From Terricaulis silvestris (GTDB taxonomy: Bacteria; Pseudomonadota; Alphaproteobacteria; Caulobacterales; Aquidulcibacteraceae), in assembly GCF_009792355.1 (NCBI RefSeq), contig NZ_CP047045.1:2444501-2508500 (forward strand): a stretch of DNA of 64,000 nt, given 5' to 3'. The stretch's first letter is position 1; each line of letters opens with the position of its first letter. Below the pieces are notes generated by a model that was given only the letters and a program-made list of their open reading frames with translations, did not search any database and was not told where the DNA came from. The position numbers and the translations under genes were made by a program. This document shows positions 57,922 through 64,000 of this stretch, in pieces.

Positions 57922-58449
57922 ATGGACATCATCGTTTGCCCCCTGTCGCGCGCTTCCGAGATCGCGCGAGACCGAAAGCCCGCACGCGTCGTGAGCCTGC
58001 TCGATCCGGGCTCGCGGTTTCCGATCCTCGATGGCTATGGCTTCGACCGCCACCTGCGCCTCGAGATCCACGACATCGAAGCCGAGAGCGAAGGCATGGA
58101 CGCGCTTTGCGACAAGCGCATGAGCGCGATCCTGGATTTCGTTGGCGGCTGGGAGCGGAGCGATCCGATCCTGATCCATTGCTACGCCGGCATCTCACGC
58201 TCGACGGCGACGGCCTACATCACCGCGTGCGCACACAATCCAGATCAGGATGAAGAAGAGATTGCGCTGGCGCTCCGCGCCGCATCTTCAACTGCTAGTC
58301 CCAACCGCCGCTTCATCGCGCTTGCGGACGCTGCGCTGGGACGTGGTGGCCGAATGACGCGCGCGATCGAAAGCATCGGGCGCGGGCCGCCGTGGTACGA
58401 AGTTGGGGAAGCCAATCCGTTCATGCTCAACGTGCGGAGAACAACGTGA
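57922..58449 (+). CDS. Protein tyrosine phosphatase-like protein
   Basis: 175 residues. The PTP loop LIHCYAGISRSTATAYITAC has the C-x5-R signature with a preceding His; the general-acid Asp could be in EIHDIEAES. DUSP-like proteins of this kind remove phosphate from tyrosine or small molecules. Follows the HD hydrolase gene by 12 bp. Substrate unknown. Confidence 0.85.
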   Translation: MDIIVCPLSRASEIARDRKPARVVSLLDPGSRFPILDGYGFDRHLRLEIHDIEAESEGMDALCDKRMSAILDFVGGWERSDPILIHCYAGISRSTATAYITACAHNPDQDEEEIALALRAASSTASPNRRFIALADAALGRGGRMTRAIESIGRGPPWYEVGEANPFMLNVRRTT

Positions 58450-58467
58450 CGCGCATCGCGTTACAAA

Positions 58468-58520
58468 CCTCCCCCCTTGCGGGGGAGGTGGCCGCGAAGC
58501 GGTCGGAGGGGGGGCGCTCA
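58468..58520. repeat. Palindromic intergenic repeat (GCGGGGGAGG type)
   Basis: Hairpin CCTCCCCCC TTGC GGGGGAGG (58468-58488) followed by GTGGCCGCGAAGCGGTCGGAGGGGG, the same hairpin plus GAAGCG...GGAGGGG tail as the copy inside the ParA partner gene at 4351-4396. Confidence 0.8.
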
Positions 58521-58571
58521 GTCGCGCCGCTGCCTGCAAGCATTTGCACGACTGAACGCCCCCCACCCCCT

Positions 58572-58598
58572 GCCCCCGCCCCGCAAGGGGGCGGGGGT
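58572..58598 (+). repeat. Palindrome overlapping the ribosome site of the NAD regulator
   Basis: GCCCCCGCCCC GCAAG GGGGCGGGGGT: a stem of about 10 bp whose 3' arm is the only purine-rich (GGGGGCGGGGG) sequence ahead of the ATG at 58604. It belongs to the same repeat cluster as 58468-58520. Confidence 0.7.
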
Positions 58599-58603
58599 TC
58601 GCT

Positions 58604-59590
58604 ATGACCAGCGCCGCGCGCATCGTCATCGGGCTTTCGGCCGCCATCGTGGCGGTGACGGAGGACGGTCCGTTCGTCGTTGTGACGCGCGAAGCCGATG
58701 GCGACACGCCGGGCTTGCCGTTCGGCCAGTTCGATCCGGCGGGCGACCGCACGCTAGAACTTTCGCTGCGCGGTTGGGTGAAGGAGCAAACCAGCTTCGA
58801 CATTGGCTATGCCGAACAGCTCTACACGTTCGGTGATCGCGGGCGCGAAACGCCGCTCGCCGACATTGGCGGCAGTCCGGATCGCGTCATCTCGATCTCC
58901 TATTTGGCGCTGACGCCATCACGCGCGGTGCTTGAGCGCGTCGGGGCGCGGTGGCGCTCTTGGTACGAGTTTTTTCCCTGGGAAGATTGGCGCGACGGCC
59001 GACCGCGCATCATCGACGACGTCATCGCGCCAAAACTCAGAGCCTGGGCGCAGGCGGGTCGCGACGCTGACACCATCGCGCAACGCCGCTCCCGAGTACG
59101 GCTTGCGTTTGCGCTCGACGGCGCCGTGTGGAACGAAGAACGCGCGCTCGATCGCTATGAATTGCTCTACGAAGCCAACCTCGCGCCCGAAGCCGCGCGC
59201 GATCGCGCACGGTTCGACGGAAAGCCTGCGCCTTCCATCACTGCAGCGCCGGGGTTGGGCGAGCCGATGGCGTCCGACCACCGCCGCATCCTCTCCACGG
59301 CGATCGGGCGTTTGCGCGCCAAGATCAAATACCGCCCCGTCGTGTTCGAGCTGGCGCCGGAGCGCTTCACGCTGCTGCACCTGCAGCGGCTGGTGGAATC
59401 CATTGCCGGCCTCGAACTGCATAAGCAGAACTTCCGCCGCTTGCTCGATCGCACCGGCCTGGTCGAAGGCACGCGCGAGTTCGACACCAGCGCCGGTGGG
59501 CGGCCCGCCGAACTCTTTCGCGCCCGCCGCGAAACTCTGAACGAACGCCCCGTCGGCGGCGTCCACGTACCGGCGCCGCGCGGCGAATAA
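58604..59590 (+). CDS. NrtR/NadQ-like NAD biosynthesis regulator
   Basis: 328 residues. The N-terminal ~160 residues have a Nudix-like fold (IGLSAAIVAVTEDGPFVVVTREADGDTPGLPFGQFDPAGDRTLELSLRGWVKEQTSFDIGYAEQLYTFGD), but the Nudix box REx2EExG is replaced by RGWVKEQTS, so hydrolysis is unlikely. The C-terminal region FELAPERFTLLHLQRLVESIAGLELHKQNFRRLLDRTGLVEGTREFDTSAGGRPAELFRARRE is the winged-helix seen in NrtR-type regulators that sense ADP-ribose or other NAD metabolites. nadA lies 2.7 kb downstream with two inverted repeats in front, a natural target. Confidence 0.87.
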   Translation: MTSAARIVIGLSAAIVAVTEDGPFVVVTREADGDTPGLPFGQFDPAGDRTLELSLRGWVKEQTSFDIGYAEQLYTFGDRGRETPLADIGGSPDRVISISYLALTPSRAVLERVGARWRSWYEFFPWEDWRDGRPRIIDDVIAPKLRAWAQAGRDADTIAQRRSRVRLAFALDGAVWNEERALDRYELLYEANLAPEAARDRARFDGKPAPSITAAPGLGEPMASDHRRILSTAIGRLRAKIKYRPVVFELAPERFTLLHLQRLVESIAGLELHKQNFRRLLDRTGLVEGTREFDTSAGGRPAELFRARRETLNERPVGGVHVPAPRGE

Positions 59591-60902: not shown

Positions 60903-62105
60903 CTACGAGATCGGAATGCCGCGTGGCAGTAGCGTCCACCAACGCGCTGGTGCGTTCATGCCTTCAGCGGCGCGGCCTGCTTCCGGTCCCGAACCCCAGA
61001 AAACATCGCCGCGCAACGGCCCGCGCCGGATCGCGCCGCCGGTATCCTGCGCCACCAGCAAACGCTGAAACACTTGGCCCTGGTATTCGCCGGCGACAAA
61101 CACGACGGCGCCGTAGGGGTGATACGCGGGATCGACCGCGATCGAACCCATGGGCGTCAGCGGCACGCCTGCGGCGCCGCGTGGGCCTGCCGCGTAGTCG
61201 GTGATCTGCTCTTCTTGGAAGAAGACGTAGGATGGATCGGCGCTGAGCGCTTCTTGTGTCGCGGCGGCGCCGTTTTGATCGCTCCAGGCGCGGAAGTTCT
61301 GCCACGTTGCGCCGCCTTGCAGACGGCCGCTGTCGCGCAACGCGCCGAGCGCGGAGCGCCAGCGATAGCCGTTCTGCGATGCGAACGCCGCGCGCGCTTG
61401 CGTCCCGTCCGGAAACGACAAGCGCCCCGAACCTTGGATCTGCAGATTGTAGACATCGACCGGGTGCGCATACGCGAAGGCTTGGCCTTGGTATGGCGTC
61501 AACTCCCCACGCTTCGGATAAGGACGCACTTGCGTGCCATTGATCTGACCTGTGAGCGCACGCGGCGCGCCGCGTAGCGCTTCGTTGTCGTAGGCTTCAG
61601 CAAACGCGGCGATGTCGACTGTGACCATGTCACTCGGCTTCGTCAGCAGCGGCGCGGAGTACACCGGATCGGGAAAGCGGCGCGCTTCGATGATTGGCTC
61701 GTAGTAGGCGGTGATGCGCGCCTCGCCTTCGCCGCGCACTTGGTACGGTTGGAAGTTCGCTTCGAAGAAGGCGCGCTCACCGCCGGGCGTTACGCTTTGC
61801 GCCGCTGTGCACGCCGGCGCCCAATCGGCGACCGTGCCGCCGTAGCGCCCGCCGCCTGGTAACGCTGCGGTTGGATCGCGTTGGCGGCGGCCATCGCAGG
61901 CGCGACGGAATGCGGTGAGCGCTGGTGAGAGATCGGCGCTTGCCCATCCGGGCACGTCGCCAAAGCGCGCGGGCTGCAGCGCGAACTCGACTGCGGGCTG
62001 GCTCGGTTCGGTGACGCCGGTCGGCGGGCGCGTCGTTGTTTCGGACGTGCTGGCGCAGCCGGCGATGGCCAGTCCCGTACACACGAGCAGCAAAGCACGG
62101 CGCAT
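60903..62105 (-). CDS. mltA: MltA-type lytic transglycosylase, lipoprotein
   Basis: 400 residues. MRRALLLVCTGLAIAGCAST is a lipoprotein signal. MltA features: FFEANFQPYQVRGEGEARITAYYEPIIEARR, then the 3D-domain region DVYNLQIQGSGRLSFPDG and the catalytic Asp segment RLLVAQDTGGAIRRGPLRGDVFWGSG. Cleaves the glycan strand with 1,6-anhydro bond formation. AGGGGAGAC lies ahead of the ATG. The M23 gene follows on the same strand after 39 bp, pairing glycan and peptide cleavage. Confidence 0.93.
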   Translation of the reverse strand: MRRALLLVCTGLAIAGCASTSETTTRPPTGVTEPSQPAVEFALQPARFGDVPGWASADLSPALTAFRRACDGRRQRDPTAALPGGGRYGGTVADWAPACTAAQSVTPGGERAFFEANFQPYQVRGEGEARITAYYEPIIEARRFPDPVYSAPLLTKPSDMVTVDIAAFAEAYDNEALRGAPRALTGQINGTQVRPYPKRGELTPYQGQAFAYAHPVDVYNLQIQGSGRLSFPDGTQARAAFASQNGYRWRSALGALRDSGRLQGGATWQNFRAWSDQNGAAATQEALSADPSYVFFQEEQITDYAAGPRGAAGVPLTPMGSIAVDPAYHPYGAVVFVAGEYQGQVFQRLLVAQDTGGAIRRGPLRGDVFWGSGPEAGRAAEGMNAPARWWTLLPRGIPIS

Positions 62106-62232
62106 GCGGCGTCTCCCCTTGTCTGGTCGCCGTTCTTACCGCGCCCCTTGCCGCCCCGCAGCTTGGAACAGCGGCGGCCGTTCGGTCGGGTTTTGCTTGC
62201 GTGACGATTCTGTTGGGGGTAACTTTCAGGGG

Positions 62233-62253
62233 TTATGCTCACTTGAAGCATAA
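62233..62253. promoter_or_regulatory. Inverted repeat operator, upstream copy, ahead of nadA
   Basis: Perfect 7-bp arms TTATGCT and AGCATAA separated by 7 bp (CACTTGA). A copy differing mainly in the spacer is centred 63 bp downstream. Such a pair in front of nadA suits an NAD-responsive repressor, for which the 58604 gene is a good candidate. Confidence 0.7.
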
Positions 62254-62295
62254 GGGTGGGGTCGGGCTCTTTCCCGGCCATTTTCTACGCCCTAT

Positions 62296-62316
62296 ATATG
62301 CTCCGAACGAGTATAA
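62296..62316. promoter_or_regulatory. Inverted repeat operator, downstream copy, ahead of nadA
   Basis: Arms ATATGCTC and GAGTATAA around CGAAC, with one mismatch in symmetry. It ends 29 bp before the nadA ATG and overlaps the most -10-like sequence (TATATG/TATAAG), so binding would block transcription. Confidence 0.68.
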
Positions 62317-62345
62317 GCCGCCTTCCCGGCGCAAGGAGGCCGCCC

Positions 62346-63506
62346 ATGGCCCGGATTATCGACGCCCTTCTCACCGCCTCGGAAAGTGGCTGCGACCCCC
62401 GCGCCGTGCACGGGACTTGGGGCGCGCTCGACGCCGCCGCACGCCGGGGCTTGGCGTACACACCCGAAGTTCGGGCTAAGACCGACCACCTCTACGAGAA
62501 GGTGAAGCACGTCATTCCCGCCGTGGAGTGGCCGGCGTACGCGCCGCTGATCGCGGCGATCAATGAGATGAAGGCCGCCAAGGGCGCCGTCATCCTCGCG
62601 CACAATTACATGACCTCGGAGATCTTCCACTGCGTCGGCGACTTCCGCGGTGACTCGCTCCAGCTCGCACGCGAAGCGGCTGAGACCGACGCGAAGGTGA
62701 TCGTGCAAGCTGGCGTCCACTTCATGGCCGAGACGTCGAAGATTTTGGCGCCGGAGAAGACGGTGCTGATCCCGGACATGCGCGCGGGTTGCTCGCTCGC
62801 GGCGTCAATCACGGGCGCGGATGTGCGCTTGATCAAGGAGCGCTTTCCTGGCGTGCCGGTGGTTACGTACGTGAACACGTCGGCTGACGTGAAGGCCGAG
62901 AGCGATGTGTGCTGCACGTCGTCGAACGCCGCCGCCGTTGTGGAATGGGCGGCGCGCGAGTGGAATACCGATCGCGTCATCCTGCTGCCGGATGAGTTCT
63001 TGGCTAAGAACGTCGCGACGCAGACCGGCATCAAGATCATCTCGTGGCACGGCCGCTGCGAAGTGCACGAGCGCTTCACGGCCGAAGACATCACCGAACT
63101 GCGCGCCGCACATCCGGGCGTTGTCGTACTGGCGCACCCGGAATGCCCGCCGGACGTGATGGCGGCCGCTGACTTTGCGGGCTCGACGGCGGCGTTGCAG
63201 CACTACGTCGAAGAGAAGCGCCCGGGCAAAGTGGTGTTGCTGACCGAGTGCTCGATGAGCGACAACGTTGCGGCGACGGCGCCGGACGTCGACTTCATCC
63301 GTCCGTGCAATCTCTGCCCGCACATGAAGCGGATCACGCTCGAAGGCATCTACGACGCGCTCGCCAACATGCAGCATGAGGTGGTGATCCCCGAGGACAT
63401 CCGCGTCCGCGCCAAGCAGGCGATCCAGCGCATGTTGGACCTGCCCAAGGAGAAACCGCGCGCCTTTGCGACGGGCCGCGCGCCTGTTGCGGTGGAATTG
63501 GTCTAA
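62346..63506 (+). CDS. nadA: Quinolinate synthase
   Basis: De novo NAD synthesis: condenses iminoaspartate and DHAP to quinolinate with a [4Fe-4S] cluster. 386 residues with [49 protein letters not shown] (Cys ligand), [18 protein letters not shown] (Cys), [11 protein letters not shown], and [14 protein letters not shown] (Cys). AAGGAGG lies eight bases before ATG 62346; a start at 62256 would run through the operators. nadB and nadC are not adjacent. Two matching inverted repeats lie upstream. Confidence 0.96.
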
Positions 63507-63582
63507 CCGGCCGCGTTCGCCAAATTGCCGCCCCACTCGCCGCCCACCACCGCCCGCGAAAGTCGCGGACAGAGGACGGATG

Positions 63583-64000
63583 ATGCGTGCATTTATGACG
63601 GGTGCGGTGATAGCGGCGGCGATGCTCGCGGCGCCGGCGAACGCACAGGACACGACGGACCTCTCCGGCACGTGGGCGTTTCAGACCAATTCCTATGGCA
63701 ACGAGCAGTTCGGCGTCATCATGAGCGGCGCCGCGACGTTCACGGCGACCGCGCCCAATCGCTACGACGTGCGACTCATCGCCAACGAGCTGATCGTGCA
63801 ACGCGAGACCAGCGCGTCGCAGTTGCTGACGGCACGGCAGAACTGCACGGGCGAGAACACGGATGGTCAGCTGACGCTGACGTGTCAGTTGAGCGAAGCA
63901 GTCGAGGGCTACGAGCCGGACAATTTCTTGCTGCAGGCCGGAACGAGCGCGGACGAATTAGTTGGCGCGCTGACGTCGGGCTCGAGTCCGCAAGTGACGT
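63583..64000 (+). CDS. Exported hypothetical protein, 3' end beyond window
   Basis: The frame is open to the right edge. ATG 63583 (or 63580) with AGAGG upstream gives MRAFMTGAVIAAAMLAAPANAQ, a Sec signal with cleavage after ANA. The mature part, WAFQTNSYGNEQFGVIMSGAAT, TAPNRYDVRLIANELIVQ and RQNCTGENTDGQLTLTCQLSEA, looks like a beta-rich secreted domain with a Cys pair. No family recognised. Confidence 0.7.
   Translation, partial: MRAFMTGAVIAAAMLAAPANAQDTTDLSGTWAFQTNSYGNEQFGVIMSGAATFTATAPNRYDVRLIANELIVQRETSASQLLTARQNCTGENTDGQLTLTCQLSEAVEGYEPDNFLLQAGTSADELVGALTSGSSPQVT

Follow-up and report, generated by a model that had tools for sequence, protein, structure and literature searches.

In the window, by which we mean the whole 64,000-nucleotide stretch of Terricaulis silvestris DNA analysed here, two inverted repeats lie ahead of the quinolinate synthase gene nadA, and the gene for a regulator of NAD synthesis is located upstream on the same strand. 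The main elements are given below; P1 denotes a predicted promoter that is described further on.

58604–59590, plus strand: nadQ, encoding a transcriptional repressor of NAD synthesis of 328 aa (phmmer match to 7q91; Pfam NrtR_WHD at residues 247–306)
62233–62253, plus strand: distal NadQ operator (Od), near +1 of P1, agreeing with the motif at 16 of 18 positions, present in 29/29 genus genomes
62296–62316, plus strand: proximal NadQ operator (Op), matching 15 of 18 motif positions, present in 29/29 genus genomes
62333–62339, plus strand: nadA ribosome-binding site AAGGAGG, recognized from the sequence, with GGAG invariant in the genus alignment
62346–63506, plus strand: nadA, quinolinate synthase (PF02445 at E 6.6e-109; NF006878 above its cut-off)

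Results of the homology searches indicated that the product of 58604–59590 is NadQ itself. With phmmer, residues 11–326 of its 328 aligned to the solved NadQ (7q91_A) at E 9.4e-83, and the protein carries the NrtR-type C-terminal winged helix PF21906 at residues 247–306 (65.7 bits vs. a cut-off of 27). NrtR has a homologous C-terminal winged helix and shares NAD gene targets with NadQ, yet against the NrtR equivalog model of NCBIfam the 58604 protein scored 56.7 bits, below the cut-off of 400, and its full-length match is to NadQ. The first-pass annotation had described this protein as NrtR/NadQ-like; the NadQ part of that description stands and the NrtR part falls. NadQ is said to have been called ATP-responsive by Minazzato in 2022. 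We detected NadQ in 57 of 61 genomes, our own counted. Three of the four genomes without it belong to a single genus, g18 (G051, G055, and G059), and are also devoid of operator sites (L198, L200, and L199), while the fourth, G016, is 65% complete and yielded no nadA either. Genus g18 (family f4) has kept nadA with the NadQ site absent from all four upstream regions (L198–L201), a pattern suggestive of natural loss of the NadQ regulon.

Two genes stand ahead of nadQ in the segment 57292–59590, one with an HD domain and one phosphatase-like (its DSPc match is weak and falls short of the cut-off), and the same order of HD, phosphatase-like, and nadQ genes was found again ahead of nadA in several distant loci (among them L069, L072, L078, and L111). 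A GC-rich element resembling an inverted repeat fills the DNA that separates nadQ from the phosphatase-like gene (58465–58600, by eye). Downstream of nadA, on the same strand, we found a small ORF, nadB (match at genome position 2508666), and nadC (match at 2510143), so the NadQ sites may govern the whole nadA group. The small ORF (63580–64000), between nadA and nadB in this presumed operon, has a signal-like start.

The distal repeat, TTATGCTCACTTGAAGCATAA (62233–62253), is symmetric at 7 of 10 pairs and the proximal one, ATATGCTCCGAACGAGTATAA (62296–62316), at 6 of 10; the two are identical at 13 of 21 positions, or at 15 of 21 after inverting one. The coordinates of both repeats and the 63 bp between their centres, as reported in the first-pass annotation, were borne out by the sequence. 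Its view that they are operators of the NadQ type was likewise upheld. Scored against the published NadQ consensus ttATRCTCannntGAGYATaa (PMC5343134; 18 positions counted), the distal repeat agrees at 16/18 and the proximal at 15/18. The nadA pair are the only sites of at least 15/18 within the 64 kb; in 40 dinucleotide-shuffled copies of the window no site reached this level, and four in total scored 14.

When the whole genome was searched for WTATGCTCNNNNNGAGYATAW with at most one mismatch, three matches were obtained, namely the nadA pair and one site ahead of nadE. The latter agrees with the excerpted text of PMC5343134, according to which the NadQ regulon of Rhodobacterales and Caulobacterales also takes in nadE and nadD. 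At up to three mismatches the genome-wide search returned noise (24 matches vs. 29 for a backward control pattern). The nadE site (L002:1501–1521), with one mismatch to the search pattern, is separated by 7 bp from the earliest potential start codon, an arrangement that may give nadE a very short, NadQ-controlled leader. Two further sites were taken as chance: a 14/18 site at 58421, inside the ORF preceding nadQ, and a site with two mismatches near genome position 3022276, in front of an ORF that by eye resembles dnaG.

Conservation and spacing of the operator pair

Both sites are present in all 29 genus genomes examined, the own one included, at a distance of 61–64 bp. For loci from titled genome contigs we accepted sites of at least 14/18 within 700 bp or up to the contig end; of 80 such loci, 48 had two or more sites, 22 had one, and 10 had none. 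A further 78 upstream regions, one of them from the own genus, gave two sites in 47 cases, one in 26, and none in 5. Across these wider sets, which share some genomes and hence partly overlap, the pair occurs at a frequency of about 60%. Conservation of the repeats in related nadA promoters had been proposed as a check in the first-pass annotation, and the repeats were indeed retained there, throughout the genus and in about 60% of cases more widely. The gene upstream of the pair varies: in the genus it is mltA, in divergent orientation, and in other lineages nadQ or a different gene. As the pair is kept while this neighbor differs, it most likely belongs to nadA.

The spacing between the centres ranges from 59 to 141 bp across 41 lineage values, which were picked by hand as genus medians or single loci and are partly non-independent. 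One Phenylobacterium value was entered as 74, L109 having 75, and the phase analysis did not include genus g5 (167 bp), locus L128 (197 bp), the g16 pairs (32–34 bp), or any class-wide locus. No helical phase was found among the 41 values (Rayleigh p 0.26, 0.32, and 0.12 at 10.0, 10.5, and 11.0 bp, respectively), the phase vector at 10.5 bp being R 0.17. The idea that a spacing of six helical turns acts through phase thus did not survive comparison, and loops or stacked dimers that need a fixed helix face are unlikely as a general reason for the pair. In f5, a group of 18 sequences so labelled and 7 contigs added by name or likeness, which corresponds by its named members to Parvularculaceae, the proximal site occurs without a distal one in 22 of 25 sequences. 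A different architecture, with pairs of NadQ sites only 22–29 bp apart, was seen ahead of nadA in other alphaproteobacterial families (L246, L250, L257, L260, L269, and L271).

Between Op and the start of nadA, an SD-like string begins no more than 5 nt past the end of Op in 68 of 195 sequences. Many genus relatives have a small inverted repeat of the GCCC-ATTC-GGGC type between Op and the ribosome-binding site (62318–62332), followed by a near-constant GGAGGCC (both by eye).

Predicted promoter, hairpin, and T-run around the operators

The DNA upstream of and between the two operators contains the following additional elements.

62197–62202, plus strand: predicted −35 element of P1, TTGCGT, within a cTTGC conserved in the genus alignment
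62220–62225, plus strand: predicted −10 element of P1, TAACTT, after a 17-bp spacer, within a conserved TANNNT and ending 7 bp before Od
62254–62295, plus strand: inter-operator segment with a stem-loop made of an outer GGGTG/CGCCC stem and an inner hairpin (cis-pairing test and fold)
62260–62279, plus strand: terminator-like hairpin GGTCGGG-CTCTTT-CCCGGCC, with a 7-bp stem of which 6 pairs are GC (−12.8 kcal/mol, z −2.1)
62270–62298, plus strand: candidate weak promoter P2, drawn by eye as TTTCCC (62270–62275), 17 bp, and TATATA (62293–62298)
62281–62284, plus strand: T-run TTTT, ending 11 nt before Op (sequence and T-run position statistics)

The genus alignment contains a conserved cTTGC followed after about 17 bp by TANNNT, which ends 7–11 bp ahead of Od where the pattern matched. 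The strict P1 pattern was present in 24 of 29 genus sequences, the own one included, vs. a mean of 0.2 and a maximum of 2 in shuffles. In f5, TTGAC..TANNNT stands directly ahead of the hairpin in 18 of 25 sequences (shuffle mean 0.3). At ten further loci, counted with no shuffle control, TTGAC (once TTGAT) abuts Od and a −10 TAGCAT falls inside Od, which would account for the right half of Od often deviating from the consensus. Elsewhere the strict pattern was recovered in 1/23 f2 sequences, 4/49 double-site contigs, 4/10 other f1, 2/5 f3, and 0/2 f4. The low counts in Caulobacteraceae and f2, where P1 was assigned by eye only, can be explained by degenerate −10 boxes that the strict pattern overlooks. 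In some lineages a single operator sits at +1 of a plain promoter (by eye).

On these alignments, the best-supported promoter is predicted upstream of Od and not beneath Op. The first-pass annotation had placed the second repeat over the likely promoter; a poor promoter (TTTCCC-17-TATATA) can be drawn there, but the conserved one lies upstream of Od. If P1 is used, Op would be inside the transcribed leader, about 65 bp downstream of a start that is itself a prediction; transcription may also begin at P2.

A GC-rich stem of at least five pairs followed immediately by a T-run was found between the operators (62260–62279, then ATTTTCT). Its folding energy was computed for the window alone; stretches chosen by guess in L109, L251, and L223 missed or truncated the hairpin and were set aside. 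In a terminator scan of 62100–62400 we obtained two matches vs. 0.3 in shuffles, this one and 62175–62188. The latter is another terminator-like stem with a T-run, on the nadA strand upstream of P1. With arm limits that were set after viewing the alignment, the inner arms of the own genus paired better with their own partners than with those of another genome (0 of 20000 permutations), as did the outer arms (p 0.016); plain halves gave p 0.00065. In two further sets, one of 63 other double-site sequences and one of 23 from f2, the outcome was again 0 of 20000 permutations, and no significance was reached in control regions, whether upstream (p 0.23) or within coding sequence (p 0.996). For the f5 stem it was non-significant as well, and the pair counts were without significant covariation. 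RNAalifold, applied to the own-genus alignment, folded each operator on itself, missed the inner stem, and found no significant covariation; nor did it find any in the f5 alignment (20 of 25 sequences, with L211, L212, L214, L215, and L216 omitted). A long RNA stem uniting both operators was dropped as evidence, since it is expected wherever a palindrome occurs twice. The Rfam search of 62000–62500 returned only mir-5912 at E 5.8, below the gathering score, and seven relatives gave nothing at the gathering score. Stem sequences vary between clades (by eye).

Four or more consecutive T occur no farther than 30 nt from Op in 100 of 194 distinct sequences and are lacking there in 94. The position of the run is narrow: in 85 of the 100 it ends 8–12 nt before Op (86 of 101 when one duplicate is counted), and among the 63 sequences of this kind that have no P2-like TTG the same position is kept in 52. 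Of 162 sequences, 75 have TTTT in the interval from −24 to −8 of Op and 8 have AAAA, which indicates that the element is oriented with nadA. Shuffles for this interval covered TTTT only, and in f2, other f1, and f4 its occurrence there does not exceed them.

To view the arrangement at the level of the class, we drew 134 genomes, found NadA in 60, and examined the upstream DNA of 43 matches; this set excludes 16 weaker NadA matches, the own genome, and a Caulobacterales genome that had been treated before. A NadQ site was present in 33 of the 43 regions and absent from 10. The full terminator signature, placed 6–13 nt before a NadQ site, was detected in 12 of these 33 leaders (shuffle mean 0.25, maximum 2), spread over 10 of 27 families. 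In the own genus it occurs in 13 of 29 sequences, the own window among them (shuffles 0.13), and is missing from 16; f5 has it in 12/25 (shuffles 0.41) and other contigs in 19/64 (0.49), while it is scarce in f2 (3/24), other f1 (1/11), f3 (2/6), and f4 (0/3). In 39 of 61 distinct leaders with the signature, the 75 nt preceding the hairpin contain a P1 pattern, with about 2 expected; L233 of the class set has the same sequence as L082 (with the duplicate, 40/62, about 2.2 expected). In the eight class-wide signature leaders with P1, the −10 element ends 6–19 nt before the hairpin, so that an aptamer or leader peptide could hardly be accommodated.

Possible roles of NadQ at initiation and early termination

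We propose, as a tentative reading whose likelihood comes close to even, that the NadQ operators control nadA, and probably also nadB and nadC, at two steps, initiation and early termination. NadQ on Od would cover the start site of P1 and block initiation. Polymerases that escape this block would transcribe the short hairpin and then the U-tract, which together may form a leaky intrinsic terminator. NadQ on Op, with its edge about 8–12 bp past the U-tract, would act as a roadblock that keeps the polymerase in the U-tract, and the transcript would be released. The front edge of an elongating polymerase lies about 14–18 bp ahead of the active site. Given this reach, a protein 8–12 bp past the T-run should hold the RNA end within the T-run for release by the hairpin. 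With NadQ off the DNA, initiation and read-through would both be free. The computed basis of this proposal consists of the operators, the identity of NadQ, the conserved P1 pattern, the hairpin with its cis-specific pairing, and the narrow distance from T-run to Op; NadQ binding, use of P1, termination, and roadblocking are inferred. Speaking against it are the patchy occurrence of the terminator signature and of the strict P1 pattern, the short T-run (TTTT) of this leader, the P2-like elements in several clades, the RNAalifold result, and the lineages with a single operator or none. It is plausible, if on balance somewhat doubtful, that this amounts to a repressor-gated terminator, in which bound NadQ makes a leaky terminator efficient and one protein serves initiation and early termination in many alphaproteobacterial families.

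As the main alternative, the same elements could be read as tandem promoters, P1 with Od and P2 with Op, both repressed at initiation, the hairpin only keeping P1 transcripts off P2. The −35 of P2 would then be CTTG in the hairpin loop and its −10 would lie at the left edge of Op. This fits the TTG found at −26 or −27 of Op throughout f2 (24/24) and at −24 to −26 in most of f5 (23/25), and some f2 loci have a near-perfect P2 (TTGAAA-18-TATAAT in L184). In the own genus only TT is conserved at the corresponding place, and P2 itself is poor (TTTCCC-17-TATATA). Since 63 of the 100 T-run sequences have no P2-like TTG and 52 of them keep the placement of the T-run, and since Op directly adjoins the ribosome-binding site at many loci of Caulobacteraceae, with little space left for a start (by eye), we regard tandem promoters as rather unlikely to be the explanation. 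The first-pass annotation had favored contact between NadQ dimers on Od and Op, side by side or through a DNA loop, giving cooperative repression. Retention of the pair over many genera and its confinement to 61–64 bp in the genus speak for such contact, which is nevertheless very unlikely given that spacings of 59–141 bp over 41 lineage values are unphased (R 0.17, p about 0.32 at 10.5 bp), that 22/25 f5 sequences have Op without Od, and that the distance held tight is the one from T-run to Op, not from Od to Op.

It is also conceivable that the hairpin with its T-run is a mere insulator against upstream read-through and that Op is a plain leader operator, where NadQ would form a roadblock with no help from a terminator. 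Repression by roadblock is documented for PurR, CcpA, CodY, and LacI (PMC10310618 and PMC4132739, in excerpt). In the own genus, however, mltA lies upstream in divergent orientation, which leaves transcripts from P1 as the evident candidates to arrive at the hairpin, a P1 pattern precedes the hairpin in 39 of the 61 distinct signature leaders, and an insulator would not require a fixed distance to Op; we consider this explanation distinctly unlikely. A NadQ-independent RNA sensor, such as a riboswitch or attenuator responding to NAD or a precursor, would be in keeping with a conserved stem-loop and U-tract in the nadA leader. Rfam includes NAD riboswitch families and gave no match here, the stems are unlike between clades (by eye), and the 6–19 nt from −10 to hairpin in the eight class-wide leaders mean scarcely any preceding RNA, all of which makes a sensor of this kind extremely improbable.

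Returning to repression at initiation combined with gated termination, the operators and the repressor are already known, and the new part is the layout of promoter, Od, hairpin with T-run, and Op. The locus shares with the NadQ (COG4111) regulon of PMC5343134 and structures 7q91–7q94 the repressor family, the palindrome, and the nadABC targets, with nadE added in Caulobacterales; as excerpted, that account describes motif and targets and does not mention operator pairs, an upstream promoter, or an inter-site terminator. Likewise, in the excerpts of PMC10310618 and PMC4132739, a DNA-bound repressor downstream of the start halts polymerase (PurR on purB, CcpA on sigL, CodY, LacI), whereas nadA leaders often add a terminator-like hairpin and a T-run 8–12 nt before the operator. 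Neither in these excerpts nor among titles and abstract openings in the open-access collection searched did we find a repressor coupled to an intrinsic terminator like this. A terminator-like hairpin between the promoter and the first gene is also a feature of attenuators and riboswitches in the leaders of biosynthetic genes; unlike these, the eight class-wide leaders contain no apparent aptamer, antiterminator, or leader peptide, and the candidate switch is a DNA operator behind the hairpin.

If this proposal is correct, repressor roadblock and intrinsic terminator, usually treated as separate topics, would be united in one compact module shared by many families. It would account for the many nadA genes that have two NadQ sites at variable distance, and the design rule of a T-run 8–12 nt before an operator could be searched for in other regulons. 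The control of NAD synthesis would in this way gain a second layer.
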